Shown here one piece after another: positions 681 through 9,888 of a DNA stretch of 20,331 bases. The DNA comes from a virus, in the IMG/VR virus record IMGVR_UViG_3300032242_002760, positions 1-20,331 of that record; one strand, given 5' to 3'. Position numbers and translations under genes: made by a program. The notes beneath the pieces are model-generated. The model saw only the letters and a list, made by a program, of their open reading frames with translations, did not search any database and had not been told where the DNA came from. How positions within the stretch are numbered: position 1 is the stretch's first letter; each line of letters opens with the position of its first letter.

Positions 681-706
681 AAAAAGGGCCTTCAGGGGCC
701 CTTTTT
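681..706. terminator. Bidirectional rho-independent terminator between convergent genes
   Basis: AAAAAGGGCC (681-690) pairs perfectly with GGCCCTTTTT (697-706) around a 6-nt loop. The plus strand continues with T at 707, and the minus strand ends in a T5 tract. It can therefore stop phoH transcription rightward and the long minus-strand transcript leftward. It overlaps the last codons of the DUF2061 gene (stop at 694-692), which supports the convergent layout. Confidence 0.85.
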
Positions 707-877
707 TACTTTGTTCCAAACCAGTTCGTGTATATAATACAAAATGGTATTAATTATCATTTGTGCTACAGCAATGCTGGTAGCAAGAAACGCCTGCCCA
801 GTAATTATATAACTGATCAAAAACGTCGAACCGGAACCAATGATTCTCCAGCTTAATGTTTTTAATAATATAGTCAT
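692..877 (-). CDS. DUF2061-like small membrane protein (61 aa)
   Basis: Small integral membrane protein resembling the DUF2061 family, whose function is unknown. The sequence opens with a K-T-L-S-W-R-I-I-G motif, followed by two hydrophobic segments (about residues 12-28 and 33-50) and an L-Y-Y-I-H-E-L-V-W-N end, the usual DUF2061 pattern. The frame is open further upstream to 976, but that extension is Arg/Cys-rich and lies inside the upstream gene. The ATG at 877-875 is preferred because it overlaps the upstream stop as ATGA, a classic coupling junction, and gives a normal length for the family. Its 3' end lies in the bidirectional terminator, making it the last gene of the minus-strand run. 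Coupling to a sulfotransferase/APS kinase fusion suggests a link to sulfate or sulfated-product handling at the membrane, but that is inference. Confidence 0.8.
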   Translation of the reverse strand: MTILLKTLSWRIIGSGSTFLISYIITGQAFLATSIAVAQMIINTILYYIHELVWNKVKKGP

Positions 878-2244
878 TCCAATCCTAATTCTTTGCGAAT
901 CTTTGTGGCACTGATGTCTGTAACAGTGTCGTCGAACGTTTCTTCTCCTGCGGTATAACCCACACCCCGTCCCCACCCAATATGAACGATATTGGGTACC
1001 ACTTGTATCTCATATTGTCCTTGATATAGGGGATCTAGATCACGGCGAATAAAGCTCTTGACTTTTTCTACTTCAAATGGGTTGCTGCCTTGCCATCCTT
1101 GTACATCACGTATCTGAATAACAACCTGCCCTGTTTTCTGTAGCAGTCGTTCAAACAGCGCACGATGCCCGTCATGCCAAGGTTGCCAGCGACCCAGCAT
1201 CTGTACAGTTTCTTTCTTCCAATCAAACTTGGGTCTACGTTTGTTGGCAACAATTCTATCCGCTATGTAATCCGCCCACTTATCGGCATCTTGTTCTGTG
1301 ATACGAAAATCATAACGATTGGGTTCTTCAAACATGGCATTGGTGTCTGCGTACCTACCTTCGCGTATGGTATCTACCCAGATGATCCAATCTGCTTTAT
1401 AAATGTAACGCATTTCATCTAGAGGTGCAACAAAATCAGCAATGGCAAATTGAGTAGTACTGGAATCTGATAATTCTCGCATACGTTTACTTTGACGTAT
1501 ACGGCCTGCGTGACTGAAATCCCAGTCATTGAATTTGGCACGAACTTCGTCGGCATTCAAATGTGTGGCATTCATACGTTTTGCCAAAGCAGTGGCCAAG
1601 GTAGTTTTGCCAGCACCCGGCAAACCCATGACAAGTATCCGTTCGGCAATCAACCGGTTGGTAACGGCCGCAATGACATTGTCATAGTTTGTGGGATAAG
1701 GAGTTTTAACAACTACGGACTGCTCGGTAATTAAATCTTTTATTTGTTCGTAAGAGTAGTTCAAATTGCCAGGAGGAAAGCTGTTAAGCAGTAGATTGTC
1801 AAATTTGATCAATTTGATACAGTCGTTGATGACTGGAACGTCAATTTCCATATCAGCAGTGCTGTCGTAATCCAGCTGATCTTGTGGCACATAATGCCAC
1901 TTGTTTCTGTTGATTGCAACATAACGACTGGCAATTTGTTTTATTAGGTCTTGTCTTTTCAGCTTGATAGTAAAAAAAGTGCCATCGAATATTTTTTCCT
2001 GAAAGTCCTTGGGAAATTGTTTTACACTACTGGACATAATTTTCAGTATGTAAGAATCATTGTGTTTTGCGTTCTCTAAAAAAAGAGCCATCTCTTTGGG
2101 ATCAAAATTAGGTTCATTCCAAAAATCAATATTGGGGTGTAATTTGGATAGAAAATATCCCAGTGCTCCGCTACCACATCGAGCGGCGGACAAAATCACA
2201 ATTGGAAATTTTTTTATTGTGTATAGTTCGTGCAGTTCGGACAT
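874..2244 (-). CDS. Sulfotransferase / APS kinase-like / nucleotidyltransferase three-domain fusion
   Basis: Three catalytic-looking domains in 456 residues. Residues 1 to about 195 look like a sulfotransferase: SAARCGSGALGYFL (19-32) fits the 5'-phosphosulfate loop and KLKRQDLIKQIASRYVA (94-110) fits the 3'-phosphate-binding motif. Residues about 200-332 look like APS kinase: P-loop GLPGAGKTT (207-215), LNADEVR (229-235) in place of LDGDNVR, DFS followed by RIR (about 242-250), and FVAP in place of FISP. Residues about 345-456 are an HxGH nucleotidyltransferase: GRWQPWHDGH (351-360), SNPF, and ISATKIR (444-450), closer to NMN adenylyltransferase than to classical ATP sulfurylase. A reasonable inference is that it makes PAPS from APS and transfers sulfate to an unknown acceptor. 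The substrate of the C-terminal domain is open. Its ATG overlaps the gp44 stop (TAATG), and its stop overlaps the DUF2061 start (ATGA). Confidence 0.85.
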   Translation of the reverse strand: MSELHELYTIKKFPIVILSAARCGSGALGYFLSKLHPNIDFWNEPNFDPKEMALFLENAKHNDSYILKIMSSSVKQFPKDFQEKIFDGTFFTIKLKRQDLIKQIASRYVAINRNKWHYVPQDQLDYDSTADMEIDVPVINDCIKLIKFDNLLLNSFPPGNLNYSYEQIKDLITEQSVVVKTPYPTNYDNVIAAVTNRLIAERILVMGLPGAGKTTLATALAKRMNATHLNADEVRAKFNDWDFSHAGRIRQSKRMRELSDSSTTQFAIADFVAPLDEMRYIYKADWIIWVDTIREGRYADTNAMFEEPNRYDFRITEQDADKWADYIADRIVANKRRPKFDWKKETVQMLGRWQPWHDGHRALFERLLQKTGQVVIQIRDVQGWQGSNPFEVEKVKSFIRRDLDPLYQGQYEIQVVPNIVHIGWGRGVGYTAGEETFDDTVTDISATKIRKELGLE

Positions 2245-3910: not shown

Positions 3911-4420
3911 TTATCTCAGGAATTCCTGCCAGTCTAAATTATATTTGACCGAATCTATCTGATGTACACCCAGTAAAAACAGTACAAAACTGGCAACACT
4001 TGAACCCCTGCCTACCCCCCATACAATGCCATTTTCTTGGCAGGTATCTACAAAATGCTTGGTCCATTGTAGCAAAGGAATCATACCTCTTTCGTTGTAT
4101 GCATCCATTTCGTCTAACACACGTTGTTTTTGTTGTGCAGTGGTACATTTTGCCAAACACCACTCTTCCACATCAAAATCTTTGTATTCTGGTGGCATGA
4201 ACCAATCACTTTGCAATGCTTGATCAAAATCTTCAATGCTAATACTGTCTAATTGTTCGTTGAATTTTTGGAATGTAAATCCAGCAACATGCTCCAACTG
4301 CTCAATATCTTCAGTATAGTCTACAGTGAGATCTTTGAGGTTGGTAAGTTTTCCTTGGTATAGGAATTTGAATATATCTTGACTATTAAAAATAGGATTA
4401 CCGAATTTATCTAGGCGCAT
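3911..4420 (-). CDS. DNA polymerase III alpha-like protein lacking the catalytic aspartates
   Basis: A 169-residue protein. Its last 70 or so residues match the segment of bacterial replicase alpha subunits (DnaE/PolC) just before and at the start of the palm: helix V-L-D-E-M-D-A-Y-N-E-R-G-M, then W-G-V-G-R-G-S-S-V-A-S (134-144), then L-G-V-H-Q-I-D-S and Q-E-F-L-R at the end. In DnaE the next element is the P-D-x-D-x-D motif holding two catalytic aspartates, and this protein stops just before it, so it cannot polymerise DNA by itself. The N-terminal 90 residues show no PHP motif I can identify. I recall similar short proteins in marine T4-like phages, so it is probably a complete, retained gene rather than debris. 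A regulatory or replisome-binding role is speculation. The stop lies 25 nt before the next gene. Confidence 0.75.
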   Translation of the reverse strand: MRLDKFGNPIFNSQDIFKFLYQGKLTNLKDLTVDYTEDIEQLEHVAGFTFQKFNEQLDSISIEDFDQALQSDWFMPPEYKDFDVEEWCLAKCTTAQQKQRVLDEMDAYNERGMIPLLQWTKHFVDTCQENGIVWGVGRGSSVASFVLFLLGVHQIDSVKYNLDWQEFLR

Positions 4421-4661: not shown

Positions 4662-5272
4662 TAATAGTATCCAACCTGTTTCATAAACACAGTGGCACCG
4701 GCATTAACAGTCCATGCTTCAATAATGGTGTATCCACCATTTGCATTCAATTGGCAAGTTGCCGGTAAAGATACTGATGTTTGTCCTGCACTGTTTTTCC
4801 AAGTTGATTCCAACTTGATCAATCCAGCATTGGATGTGCTGAATGTAACATTTCTAGTTTGTACTTGATCACCAGTCAACATCACACGAACAAGACTGAA
4901 TTGACCAGTAACTGGCCAGTTGTTAAATGTCAATGTACACGCACCGCTAGCAGTGAATTGCTGTACAGGACCGTTGTTGATATCAATAGTAGCACTAACA
5001 GCAATAGTTCCACCGTTGAAGAACACACCGTTAAATTGAACATATTTGCCGTTGTTCAAAGTAGCTCCCAGTAAATTATTTGTTGCTGGAGTAGTACTAG
5101 TGGCCAAATCAACAGTTAAAACTGTGTTGGTTTGTAATGCTGTGATTTCCGATTTGGCTGTGGCCAGCGCCGCACTGATGTTTGTGAAATTATCACGAAA
5201 CCCTTGACTGTTGTTGTCTTGGCCTGCTACTGGGTAAGTTGTGCTGATGCTTGCGAAATTTATATTGCTCAT
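4661..5272 (-). CDS. Small virion/fibre protein with the N-terminal GQDNNSQGFRDNF module
   Basis: Probable virion protein (203 aa). It opens with Y-P-V-A-G-Q-D-N-N-S-Q-G-F-R-D-N-F-T-N-I, a short N-terminal module used by marine T4-like phage fibre proteins, followed by a likely coiled coil (about residues 33-48, A-T-A-K-S-E-I-T-A-L-Q). The rest (about 50-203) is Thr/Asn/Val-rich beta sequence without obvious enzymatic motifs, ending M-K-Q-V-G-Y-Y. The coiled coil followed by beta sequence suggests a trimeric fibre or knob. Its start overlaps the stop of the peroxidase-virion gene (ATGA at 5272-5269). AGGA lies 8 nt before the ATG, and a T4-type late promoter candidate lies about 30 nt upstream, so it may be boosted independently of the giant gene before it. 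Confidence 0.75.
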   Translation of the reverse strand: MSNINFASISTTYPVAGQDNNSQGFRDNFTNISAALATAKSEITALQTNTVLTVDLATSTTPATNNLLGATLNNGKYVQFNGVFFNGGTIAVSATIDINNGPVQQFTASGACTLTFNNWPVTGQFSLVRVMLTGDQVQTRNVTFSTSNAGLIKLESTWKNSAGQTSVSLPATCQLNANGGYTIIEAWTVNAGATVFMKQVGYY

Positions 5273-8200
5273 ACGGTTATCCTATCGTTTTTGAATACTA
5301 GATATTTATCGCCTGAATAACCAGTGACATTGTCGATTATGAATCTATCCACAGTATAATCTATCACTTTGAAGTCAAACCCGCTGTATTTTATGTTTAA
5401 AATAATACTGTCTGCTGTGCCAGGTTTGCAGAAACACAGTGGAATACTAAGTGTGTACCCCAACTGTTGCTTTTCTCCTACTGGAATACTGCGCATCCAC
5501 AGGGGCAAATAGTTTCTTTCAGTCAATCCAGTACCCTTTAATCTAGTTTGCCAGTTGGTTATACTGCTGGGAAAATAGGTATCTGGACTGGGATTGCTGA
5601 CTTCATATCCTGTGCTGTCAATAGTCAGCATGGGTATATCTCTAGTATTTCTTGGATTGGGTATGCCCAAATCACTTATTTTTTGTGTATAAAAAGTAGT
5701 GCTGTTGTCTGCGGTAATCAGTTCACTTTCAGTTCCAGGAATACTTACGACCTTCAATGGCAAATGAGCACCGTTTGGCTCCATGGGATCTAGCATTTGC
5801 ACATACACAACTTCGTACACCAGTACTCCAGTGACGGGATCAAATGCTTCGGCTTTCTTGATACTACCAAATTGAAAACGTTTCTTCTTGACATTCAACC
5901 CCATTGCTCCAACATACGCACTGGCCAGCTGAGTTTGGATTCCAGCATACACCAACATTTTTAATTCACTTTGTAGGCCAAAATTCTTGTCGTTGGTTCT
6001 ATAAATACTCCCCGGAGGAAAAATTCCCGAGTTGGTGATAAAAGATTTGAATGCAGTTCTCTGGTTTGCTTTCAAATAGGGTTTGGTTATAATGTTACTG
6101 TATGCCACACTATTTGGTGTATCAACTGTGATAGTAAAATCTCTAGTGATCGAACTGTAATTAAATTGATCTCTAGCAGTAATAGTAGTAACAAACACTC
6201 TGTCAATGGTACTGGTATTATGATCGAATGTAACAGCGCCGTTGTCAAATGTTGTTAACCCTAATGCGCCTGTGCTGGCATTGTAATACTGATTTGTAGT
6301 ACCTGTAATTTCGCCGTCAAGGTTCAAAGTTAAGCCTGGAGGCAATCCATTTTTACTCACAGTTCCTTTGGCAACCAAAGTTCCCATTGTGCTATTAGCA
6401 AAACTAACACTGCTTGATGTTGCGGCAGTGACCCGCCATAATCCGTTATACCCAGACGGAACTACATTATCCACTTGTATAATATTTCCTATACCAAACG
6501 GCATAGCTGTCTGCGGATCAAAATTCAAAGTAACAGTGGCGCCATCGCCCATTGCACTGGTCACTGTTAAACTCAGTAACTGATAAATTACCACAGCATT
6601 TGGTATTGTGGTGGTAGCACTTACGGCCAAGGTACTGATATAGTTAGCCGGTACCACTCCCAAATTACCAGGAGTATTCCAATGAATAACACTGTCAATA
6701 TCTCCAATGATATTGATTGTGAATGTTTTGCTAGCGTTCAAAGTTTCAGTAATATTATTACCTAATCTGGTAGCAGTTATGGTAAATTTAAATGTCTGTG
6801 TTACAGCGGGTTGGAAAGGCACCTGTCCGTAAATAGATCCTGATGCAATATCAAAACTAACTCCGGGCGGCAGTTGGCTGAGTGATCCAATATAAAATGC
6901 AGTGGCATTGGGAATAGACATTTCCAGTGTTGTGTACAATTTTAATCTATATTGATTGTTGTATAATTTAGTGATACTTTGTATTTGATATTTGTTTTCG
7001 CCAGCATTATCAAGATAGTATTCAAGAGTAAAATATTGTCCCACTTGAGGAAATCCATCGATAACTGTGACCACCACTTGATCACCACCACATGCTAAAG
7101 TTGTCAATCCAACAGTCCTAATTGCAGGCTGGCTAATAATGATACTGTTAGAACCAGTCGCAGTGATAGTAGTTCCATCAGGAATACCTCCACCCCGAAT
7201 TGATTGACCCACGGTTAGAGATCTGGCATCAGTGACATTTGTTATGGTAGCACTGCCAGTTGTTACAGTACCAGTAACATTTATACTGATTTGATTATCA
7301 GTAGCTAACAGTTGTATAGCAGTAGCATATACTTCTTCGTTGGTGGCTTCTAATCTAAAAACAACATCAAAATTATCATACAGCACAATAGGAACAGTTA
7401 GATAATTGTTTGCTCTATAGGTGCCTAGATTGGAATTGGTAATCCATACTGGCGCTCGCAAATATGTAGCATCGCTTGAAAAACCGGATGCTACTCCGTT
7501 GAATGCTGTGTTGTCTGCACGGAATTGATCAGTACCTACTACAAATATTTTAAAAATACGTTGAGCATAACTGACTCCGTCGGTCAGTGTAACGCGGAAT
7601 TGATAGTTGGCATTGAGTGTAGTAGGTGGCGCAGTGGCCAGATTAAAGTCATAAAATACATTGTCGTATTTGTAACTGTCAAAACCATCACTTGGCAAAT
7701 TGGCAAAATCGTAGGCCACGGCATCAAAGAACGCATTGTCATAAGTACCATTGCCATCTGCTGGTGTAATCTTGACAACTGGTTCAATAAATCCGCTGAT
7801 AACTCCACTTGGGCTTAACACAAGACCGTTTGGTAAGTCGCCATCGTCGCTGCCGATAAAATATGTTAGTGTTTGTCCAACTGCGGTGTTTAGGTCAAAT
7901 GCTTCAATCTGATAGCTTACATGAGTTTGGTCAAGCACATACAATTGATGCCCGCTGCCAATAGGCAAATTGCCCGGTGCTGAAACAAATATTGGAGGGT
8001 TAGTTCCAGTGATTGTCATGGTAAATGTACGATCGCTGATTTGTAATCCAACAGCGGCACGTATACAAAATTTATAAGTTGTATCATTGCTAACAATATA
8101 TGGACTACCAACTATTGAACTACCTTGAATTGTTAGCCCGCCTGGCAACGAACCGCTAATAACTTTATAAGATATACCAATACTATCAGTACCTGGTATA

Positions 8201-9888
8201 TTAACGCCACCCGTTCTTGCTGTAATAGTTGTAACAGTGCCGTTATATAAATCAGCACGTTCGACTGCTACAAATGCATCGGATTGCATCCTTATTGTAT
8301 CGGTATTTCTAAGAATAATATCGCTAAGTGTTGTGGCACGTAACCATTCTAAGTCACTAGCACTCCAAGGTTGATTCTCGAACCATTGACTGTCGCCATC
8401 GCGTAGTCTTGTAAACTGGTCTATAATAATCGCTTGGAAAGTAGGACCTACCATGGCAGCAGTTGCTGGAAATTCAGCTAGCCCACCTACCCATAAATCG
8501 ACTTTGTCGATGTCACCATATGCGTTTTGAAGTGCAAGTACAACAGTAGAATCTGAAGTAATCTGACTAAAACTTGTGTATGCTGGAAATCCTAATGCCA
8601 CACGCATTTGATTAAGACTTGGCAATCCTAAATCACGACCACGTTGTATATTTGTTGCCGCTAGATCTAATGCGGCCGGCGGATCGTTTAATAAATTGCG
8701 TAAGTCGTCAATGATGTATACATCTAGCTTGTTTGATATGTCACTGGCTAATTTGCGTATAAACCCGTCAGCACCGCCATTACGTTCAAACTGTGCAGGT
8801 GTTAAAAAGAAAGCCTGAGCCAATGTCAAAGACTCTAAAATATTCCCCTGTTCGTCTACACGATCTTGCGCACCTGACACAATGCTATGCCCAAACCGCA
8901 TAGCGGCCGCGGCAAATTCTATTTTAATAGTAGAATCAACAACAGGATTAAATCCTGTATACGCTGGAATATGATCGTTACCTATTACTTTAGGTAACCA
9001 TTCTTTGTAAGTAATATTTTGAAATTCAGCAATAACAATGCTACGAGCACGTTGGTATAATTGTTCACCAGTCCATGTTGGGTGTAGTACTTTTAATCTG
9101 TCTACATGCCAGTTGTGTTCACGAATAAACAATGTTTGTACACTGGACAAATCTGGATTTTCCGTTCCTCGAGGGTCGCCAAACAAAAATGATCCGTTAA
9201 CTATAGGCGCATATCGTCCATTGCTACTAGTTAATAATTTACCAGTGGTAGCAATTTGTCCACCTTCTCGTAAGTTAACTGGATTTTGAAATGGTGTAGG
9301 GCCTTGCGGTACACCTGGAGGATAAGCAACACCGTAGACTATACTACAGTCAATCCATCCAGTAACATCATTCATCGGTAGTGCAGGATGTTGTGTATCA
9401 GTACCAGTATTTGGTGCCACGGCATTTCTGTTAACTGGAATGTGACTACCGGAGCCAAACCCGTCAATGTCGCCTGCTGGAACTATTACATCGATGTTAA
9501 CTGTGCCGGGCCGAGCAAATTCTAAGTCGTGTGTTAAAAATTGACCAAATGCATACATGAATCCACTATAGCCATTGGGGTCAGGTTGGTTACCGTGGTT
9601 GATTGCATCTCTTACTACTAAGTTACTAACGGTTCGTGCATTAGGTAAATCACTACGCATCTGGTAGATACCATCTACATAACTGTTCACAGTTCCTCGA
9701 GCAAATGGCGCACCTGCGCTATTGCGTAAAGGTGCCGTAGGATGATGGTTAGTACCGTCGTAGCTTGCTGGAGGAACTCCGTTAAATGCCGCACCTGGCA
9801 CAACTGGTAGTTGTTGACTAACAGCTAGACTTTCAGGAAATGTTCCTAAACTGTATCCACTGTTCTTTGTCCAAACATTCGAAGCCAT
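5269..9888 (-). CDS. Giant virion protein: animal-type haem peroxidase plus Ig-like domains
   Basis: 1539 residues. Residues about 40-545 form an animal-type (myeloperoxidase-like) haem peroxidase domain. Distal G-Q-F-L-T-H-D-L (115-122) supplies Gln116, His120 and the calcium ligand Asp121. T-G-W-I-D-C-S (176-182) matches the calcium loop. G-D-P-R-G-T-E (237-243) gives catalytic Arg240 and haem-linking Glu243. R-F-G-H-S carries proximal His334, and A-T-N-I-Q-R-G-R-D carries its partner Asn413. About four putative Ig-like (He_PIG type) domains follow (553-629, 632-786, 812-1061, 1068-1256), with tags such as G-L-P-P-G-L-T-L and G-E-I-T-G-T; at least two appear interrupted by inserted modules. 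Residues 1262-1539 resemble the C-terminus of marine T4-like virion proteins. There is no signal peptide. It is probably a tail or baseplate-associated structural protein that may oxidise surface substrates; activity is unproven. Confidence 0.88.
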   Translation of the reverse strand: MASNVWTKNSGYSLGTFPESLAVSQQLPVVPGAAFNGVPPASYDGTNHHPTAPLRNSAGAPFARGTVNSYVDGIYQMRSDLPNARTVSNLVVRDAINHGNQPDPNGYSGFMYAFGQFLTHDLEFARPGTVNIDVIVPAGDIDGFGSGSHIPVNRNAVAPNTGTDTQHPALPMNDVTGWIDCSIVYGVAYPPGVPQGPTPFQNPVNLREGGQIATTGKLLTSSNGRYAPIVNGSFLFGDPRGTENPDLSSVQTLFIREHNWHVDRLKVLHPTWTGEQLYQRARSIVIAEFQNITYKEWLPKVIGNDHIPAYTGFNPVVDSTIKIEFAAAAMRFGHSIVSGAQDRVDEQGNILESLTLAQAFFLTPAQFERNGGADGFIRKLASDISNKLDVYIIDDLRNLLNDPPAALDLAATNIQRGRDLGLPSLNQMRVALGFPAYTSFSQITSDSTVVLALQNAYGDIDKVDLWVGGLAEFPATAAMVGPTFQAIIIDQFTRLRDGDSQWFENQPWSASDLEWLRATTLSDIILRNTDTIRMQSDAFVAVERADLYNGTVTTITARTGGVNIPGTDSIGISYKVISGSLPGGLTIQGSSIVGSPYIVSNDTTYKFCIRAAVGLQISDRTFTMTITGTNPPIFVSAPGNLPIGSGHQLYVLDQTHVSYQIEAFDLNTAVGQTLTYFIGSDDGDLPNGLVLSPSGVISGFIEPVVKITPADGNGTYDNAFFDAVAYDFANLPSDGFDSYKYDNVFYDFNLATAPPTTLNANYQFRVTLTDGVSYAQRIFKIFVVGTDQFRADNTAFNGVASGFSSDATYLRAPVWITNSNLGTYRANNYLTVPIVLYDNFDVVFRLEATNEEVYATAIQLLATDNQISINVTGTVTTGSATITNVTDARSLTVGQSIRGGGIPDGTTITATGSNSIIISQPAIRTVGLTTLACGGDQVVVTVIDGFPQVGQYFTLEYYLDNAGENKYQIQSITKLYNNQYRLKLYTTLEMSIPNATAFYIGSLSQLPPGVSFDIASGSIYGQVPFQPAVTQTFKFTITATRLGNNITETLNASKTFTINIIGDIDSVIHWNTPGNLGVVPANYISTLAVSATTTIPNAVVIYQLLSLTVTSAMGDGATVTLNFDPQTAMPFGIGNIIQVDNVVPSGYNGLWRVTAATSSSVSFANSTMGTLVAKGTVSKNGLPPGLTLNLDGEITGTTNQYYNASTGALGLTTFDNGAVTFDHNTSTIDRVFVTTITARDQFNYSSITRDFTITVDTPNSVAYSNIITKPYLKANQRTAFKSFITNSGIFPPGSIYRTNDKNFGLQSELKMLVYAGIQTQLASAYVGAMGLNVKKKRFQFGSIKKAEAFDPVTGVLVYEVVYVQMLDPMEPNGAHLPLKVVSIPGTESELITADNSTTFYTQKISDLGIPNPRNTRDIPMLTIDSTGYEVSNPSPDTYFPSSITNWQTRLKGTGLTERNYLPLWMRSIPVGEKQQLGYTLSIPLCFCKPGTADSIILNIKYSGFDFKVIDYTVDRFIIDNVTGYSGDKYLVFKNDRITV
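5303..5310 (-). promoter_or_regulatory. Candidate T4-type late promoter GATAAATA
   Basis: The minus strand reads GATAAATA (5310-5303), one base away from the T4 late consensus TATAAATA. It lies inside the 3' end of the 1539-residue gene, about 30 nt ahead of the ATG at 5272, with AGGA between them. A late promoter here would suit a virion gene. Eight-base AT-rich matches also occur by chance, so this is tentative. Confidence 0.35.

Follow-up and report, generated by a model that had tools for sequence, protein, structure and literature searches.

Can a phage encode in a single polypeptide the whole route from sulfate to a sulfated product? This question is raised by an ORF in the window, which is here the whole stretch of DNA analysed, the 20,331-base record of a freshwater phage. 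The original prediction had read this ORF as a sulfotransferase, an APS-kinase-like domain and an HxGH nucleotidyltransferase (NTase) joined in one chain that makes its own PAPS. The features concerned are the following.

874-2244, minus strand: sulfotransferase-kinase-NTase ORF, a single open frame of 456 codons plus stop
1654-2244, minus strand: Stf0-like sulfotransferase domain, residues 1-197 (AlphaFold model, VIA-align and conserved motifs)
1650-1660, minus strand: junction AACCGGTTGATT, where the sulfotransferase frame reads TTG (L198) and the +1 frame reads TGA
1225-1650, minus strand: APS-kinase-like domain, residues 199-340 (Pfam, PDB profile search and structure)
874-1224, minus strand: shortened NadM-like HIGH nucleotidyltransferase, residues 341-456 plus stop (sequence profiles and invariant residues)
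692-877, minus strand: DUF2061 small membrane protein of 61 aa, whose start overlaps the NTase stop (ATGA)

The ORF is confirmed as a real gene, beyond chance, because residues 201-454 of its product match PHROG 10255 'kinase' (1.9e-50, profile search), the APS_kinase score exceeds the Pfam cut-off and the kinase-NTase part is under strong purifying selection (pN 0.09, pS 0.77, window versus L001). It belongs to a packed block composed of a GroES-like gene, a clamp loader gene, the ORF and then the DUF2061 gene, which matches PF09834 with 68.7 bits (scored on ORF 692-976, with an internal ATG at 877); the PhoH gene of the window is on the opposite strand. The window also encodes, at 5269-9888 on the minus strand, a 1539-aa protein in which Ig-like He_PIG domains come after a complete animal haem peroxidase domain (residues 42-539, PF03098, 4.6e-116); the region is phage tail-like. 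A protein of 169 aa that stands alone, encoded at 3911-4420 and again on the minus strand, corresponds to part of the DNA polymerase III alpha subunit (PF07733, PHROG 11127).

The three domains of the product

All the motifs quoted in the original prediction were located in the translation: SAARCGSG (residues 19-26), KRQDLIKQIAS (96-106), GLPGAGKTT (207-215), NADEVR (230-235), DFS (242-244), FVAP (271-274) and HDGH (357-360).

The N-terminal domain, taken alone, gave no sulfotransferase match in the Pfam scan and stayed below the gathering cut-offs of PF09037 and PF13469, as does its nearest relative, L071 (20.0 bits against a cut-off of 22 and 21.2 bits against 27, respectively). Foldseek alone put generic P-loop kinases at the top. 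The question left by Pfam and Foldseek was settled by VIA-align and by the relatives. The AlphaFold model (pLDDT 88.3) has as its best structural match the trehalose sulfotransferase Stf0 (1tex, Z 11.8, 162 aligned residues), followed by SULT enzymes interspersed with other P-loop folds. The relatives conserve P-R-[CST]-G-S, Glu-Pro and R-x8-S-x-Y, and in their alignment (A4) R22, G24, E44, P45, R97, Q103 and S106 are invariant. In the window protein these elements correspond to a 5'-PSB-like P-x-R-[CST]-G-S, to Glu44-Pro45 and to a 3'-PB-like R97...S106, with W116 in addition; we take P-R-[CST]-G-S and R-x8-S-x-Y to be the 5' and 3' elements that bind PAPS. The domain therefore combines the sulfotransferase fold with both the 5'-PSB and 3'-PB motifs, and the call made for it from sequence holds. 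It shares with Stf0 the R-x8-S motif but is shorter, about 195 residues against 287, and falls under the Pfam Stf0 cut-off.

The middle domain is APS-kinase-like, as had been proposed. The window protein scores 29.0 bits for Pfam APS_kinase (PF01583, cut-off 21.1) and its relatives score from 40.5 to 153.7 bits. A PDB search with a profile of 13 relatives places APS kinases on top (2yvu, 5.7e-12); moreover, the model of residues 199-456 (AlphaFold, pLDDT 85.6) aligns in its kinase part with APS kinases (Z 16.7, 138 residues at an rmsd of 2.4, VIA-align), and the top rows of the structure list are all APS kinases or PAPS synthetases, other kinases appearing from rank 28. The sites recognised are the P-loop at 207-215, D232, R235, F243/S244, R248, FVAP at 271-274 and a lid with F305/P308. 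This phage lid departs from classical APS kinases, having ADTN where those have FTG, whereas haloarchaeal relatives retain the complete lid with FTG. The NCBIfam equivalog model TIGR00455 gives the window kinase 25.3 bits against a cut-off of 138.7, and a haloarchaeal relative 158.3 bits. Neither of the outcomes named in advance as speaking against the original prediction, an N-terminus foreign to sulfotransferases or an unrelated P-loop kinase in the middle, came true.

The C-terminal domain is a HIGH-type nucleotidyltransferase, again as predicted. Its profile matches are NMN adenylyltransferases (1f9a, 1.1e-6, and also 2qjt, in the PDB search with 13 relatives), and CTP_transf_like exceeds the Pfam cut-off in relatives. 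The motifs are GRWQPWHDGH (351-360), NP (388-389), W/Y-GRxVGY (424-430) and ISATKIR (444-450); GRxQPxHxGH and ISxTxxR, which are NadM motifs, are invariant or almost so in alignments A5, A6 and A7. The fold assignment rests on sequence profiles, because the VIA-align rows for the kinase-NTase model span the kinase only. The domain has the two motifs and the profile matches in common with the NMN adenylyltransferases of NadR and NadM; it differs from them in being shortened, in its invariant GRxVGY and in having an APS-type kinase placed on the other side. The window protein reaches 23.7 bits for the NadM equivalog TIGR01527 (cut-off 181.2), and its best 25 Pfam/NCBIfam matches listed include neither of the ATP sulfurylase families, Sat (PF01747) and CysDN. 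The NTase lacks QxRN, the sulfate-binding motif of classical ATP sulfurylases; as a guess, R426, the invariant Arg of GRxVGY, is a candidate for the sulfate site.

One chain or two overlapping genes

Over 500 IMG/VR stretches contain the kinase-NTase pair; in the best 80 of them it is a gene of its own of about 260 aa. The sulfotransferase of the window type is in viral relatives a separate, adjoining gene of about 195-230 aa, whose TGA overlaps the ATG of the kinase-NTase gene as ATGA in L008, L010-L013 and L071. A search with the sulfotransferase alone found nine loci, all adjoining a kinase-NTase and some in reverse order; with a tenth locus devoid of it (L220), the neighbour is present in 9/10 contigs. 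In a 354-kb viral contig of a large phage (G309, 212530-213305) NTase and kinase are themselves adjacent genes in reversed order, NTase first.

The claim that the three activities lie in one polypeptide stands as far as the single open frame of the window is concerned; it does not extend to the viral relatives retrieved, in all of which sulfotransferase and kinase-NTase are separate genes, so that this single chain was found only in this contig. The junction matches the position of the ATGA stop/start overlap, and one base near 1653-1660 decides between one ORF and two overlapping ORFs. Deleting any one of several bases just upstream gives a 197-aa sulfotransferase ending at TGA, and provides the kinase with a TTG start that overlaps this TGA. 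The fused chain is one base from the two-gene state of its relatives.

That the single chain is not biological, two overlapping genes having been joined by a one-base sequencing or assembly error, is a serious possibility that falls somewhat short of even; it concerns the architecture alone and agrees with the function that we prefer. The two-gene layout restored by removing one base, with a 197-aa sulfotransferase similar to the 194-aa ones of relatives, speaks for such an error, as does the failure to find the junction DNA pattern in a second viral contig. The site has nevertheless diverged beyond one base, because its start position reads TTG and not ATG and the leader is changed and lengthened (LIAER for MTQR). 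Moreover, such fused chains can occur: Rhizobium sp. BK376 has a 555-aa ORF composed of Sulfotransfer_2 (31.3 bits), APS_kinase (55.1) and CTP_transf_like (22.3), all over their cut-offs, an independent fusion that uses a sulfotransferase family different from that of the window. The single chain, the least secure part of our reading, could be either a recent fusion or a sequencing indel.

Genomic context of the kinase-NTase pair

The kinase-NTase pair is also present in most sampled SAR11-family genomes, in rhizobia and in haloarchaea. In Pelagibacteraceae 224 of the 297 genomes sampled gave matches at E <= 0.001, of which the weaker ones may be ordinary kinases; in the strong matches kinase and NTase are either fused in one gene or encoded, in this order, by two genes that overlap. 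The fused forms are often found in polysaccharide loci with adjoining sulfotransferase genes, for example Sulfotransfer_1 in L092 (68.7 bits), L248 (55.7) and L251 (26.2), and the pair can also overlap a Sulfotransfer_1 gene. Sulfotransfer_3 occurs in 32/50 chosen carriers and in 4/20 non-carriers (p = 0.001; size-matched p = 0.002). In these 50 carriers, whose genomes are partly incomplete, PF01747 is absent from 44 and CysD exceeds the cut-off in none. A pyruvate-kinase-barrel protein also adjoins the pair in several Pelagibacteraceae (L092 7646-8716, PF00224 197.9 bits; L094 5031-5993; L127, L129 and L130).

Four small alphaproteobacterial genomes (G738, G432, G563 and G660) share one cys operon, in the order uroporphyrinogen-III methyltransferase (siroheme synthase), sulfite reductase, cysH, DUF2061, kinase and NTase. 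CysD is over the cut-off in none of the four, which are partly incomplete, and PF01747 is absent from three of them, G432 having a Sat elsewhere in its genome; the stand-alone NTase of the operon likewise matches neither the Sat (PF01747) nor the CysDN profiles. The cysH gene bears the CC/CxxC motifs that are typical of APS reductases, and its substrate may therefore be APS; the operon thus points to a need for APS rather than PAPS, for which an ATP sulfurylase would still be required.

In haloarchaeal plasmids of several families a sulfotransferase lies directly upstream of the kinase-NTase, annotated cysC, in 7/7 cases; there the pair scores 152 bits for APS_kinase and 43 bits for CTP_transf_like. 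Small ORFs between the two genes were considered as DUF2061 and rejected by Pfam. Each of the seven plasmids (L310-L315, L317) also has a YqcI/YcgG family gene with this cluster.

The nod cluster of Microvirga lotononidis has the order nodJ, sulfotransferase, kinase-NTase, CysD and CysN/DUF2061. Here the kinase is intact beside an NTase that has lost its motifs (HESH for HxGH, NR for NP, GLDLGY for GRxVGY and VQ for IR), a decay expected if CysD/CysN made the NTase redundant, that is, if the NTase normally does the CysD/CysN job. A search for PF09037 in 60 Rhizobium genomes gave no match anywhere, controls included.

In viruses, a recognisable sulfotransferase lies within 3 kb in 7/52 kinase-NTase loci and 2/57 controls (p = 0.08), a link that is suggestive; in L023 the kinase-NTase is followed by Sulfotransfer_2 (36.6 bits, over the cut-off) and Sulfotransfer_3 (23.7 bits, cut-off 27). 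A DUF2061-type gene comes after the pair in 21 of the best 80 of the more than 500 viral loci. Besides window 692-877, DUF2061 is found at L288 5644-5910 and L309 8181-9770. Its recurrence beside the module, which it precedes in the four cys operons, and its fusion to the C-terminus of CysN in Microvirga make a partnership in sulfate use or activation probable. In Casjensviridae isolates (L084 5574-6750; L082 5565-6747) a gene annotated NADAR (in Bhz60) directly precedes a diverged (39%) kinase-NTase, and about 3-4 kb upstream there is one annotated cysteine dioxygenase.

A possible route from sulfate to PAPS

Judging from sequence and context, we consider it probable that the ORF couples an Stf0-like sulfotransferase with a PAPS synthetase of a compact and non-canonical kind. 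The NadM-like NTase, through GRxQPxHxGH and ISATxIR, would transfer AMP from ATP onto sulfate, giving APS and PPi; the APS-kinase-like domain would then turn APS into PAPS by phosphorylating its 3'-OH. The sulfuryl group would finally be passed on by the N-terminal domain, or in relatives by the product of the overlapping upstream gene, and the acceptor may be a glycan of the cell surface. Genomic context suggests sulfate as the NTase substrate, and we infer the PAPS product, the order of the steps, the acceptor and the working of three domains as one chain in vivo. The sulfate-activation reading is supported by the cys operon, the seven haloarchaeal sulfotransferases, the BK376 fusion and the Microvirga NTase decay; the Sulfotransfer_3 excess in Pelagibacteraceae carriers and the sulfotransferase-kinase-NTase adjacency in viral contigs add further support. 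Against it we count the resemblance of the NTase to NMN adenylyltransferases, the hint at NAD metabolism given by NADAR upstream in Casjensviridae, the missing QxRN, the modest viral counts (7/52 versus 2/57) and the cysH motifs pointing to APS.

The first two of these points lead to a NAD+ salvage enzyme, a rearranged NadR in which the kinase would convert nicotinamide riboside to NMN and the NadM-like domain NMN to NAD+, possibly used by the phage against NAD-depleting defences. NAD salvage genes are frequent in phages (PMC9503650), and besides the NTase profile matches and the NADAR gene just upstream in phage Bhz60 there are weak matches to NadR models. The kinase, however, fits APS kinases far better (2yvu 5.7e-12 versus NadR 0.0025), and the cellular relatives adjoin sulfotransferases and cys genes, not NAD genes; given the kinase family and these contexts, NAD salvage is judged unlikely, indeed very improbable. 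A small but real chance belongs to a true APS-kinase relative whose NTase activates a group other than sulfate, yielding another 3'-phosphonucleotide donor. Cj1415, an APS-kinase-like kinase acting on a CDP-phosphoramidate in Campylobacter methyl phosphoramidate synthesis, is a precedent, and the ADTN lid of the phage kinase fits it; the full FTG lid of the haloarchaeal relatives and the partner genes, for sulfate reduction or for ordinary sulfotransferases from several families, argue instead for sulfate.

The proposed PAPS synthetase resembles the human-type enzymes PAPSS1/2 in having the kinase N-terminal and an HxGH nucleotidyltransferase C-terminal, and the window kinase aligns with PAPSS1 (2ofx) at Z 16.4; the NTase is however a NadM-like domain of about 115 residues, not the much larger Sat type, with no PF01747 match. 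Viral CysC auxiliary genes are also APS-kinase-like, and in the accessible parts of their report they are described as single kinases with no NTase or sulfotransferase partner (PMC9529941). Phage sulfotransferases have been reported, with a role not known (PMC10580990). In rhizobial NodH-NodP-NodQ, PAPS synthesis is genetically coupled to a sulfotransferase, as here, and the Microvirga nod cluster has a kinase-NTase member; its ATP sulfurylase is CysD/CysN, and its NTase domain is decayed.

The original prediction as a whole is partly supported: independent genomic context favours PAPS made in place from sulfate, as we infer it, and the single-chain part is weaker. Coupling of a PAPS synthetase to a sulfotransferase is known in kind. 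Two unrelated forms of ATP sulfurylase are known, Sat and CysDN, and the case for a third class is credible; in a partial coverage of the literature neither a NadM-like sulfate adenylyltransferase nor this fusion was found described. That such a class, a mini NadM-like NTase working with an APS kinase, exists in SAR11-type bacteria, haloarchaea, rhizobia and many phages, with the three steps in one chain here, we hold to be possible, just short of evenly balanced. If true, it would alter the way in which sulfate use is deduced from genomes. It would provide a PAPS source for those SAR11-family genomes in which sulfotransferases occur without either known form, and the four small alphaproteobacterial genomes would gain a full sulfate assimilation route. 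Some phages would then come equipped with a sulfate donor of their own, which could let them modify host surfaces or virions independently of the PAPS of the host.
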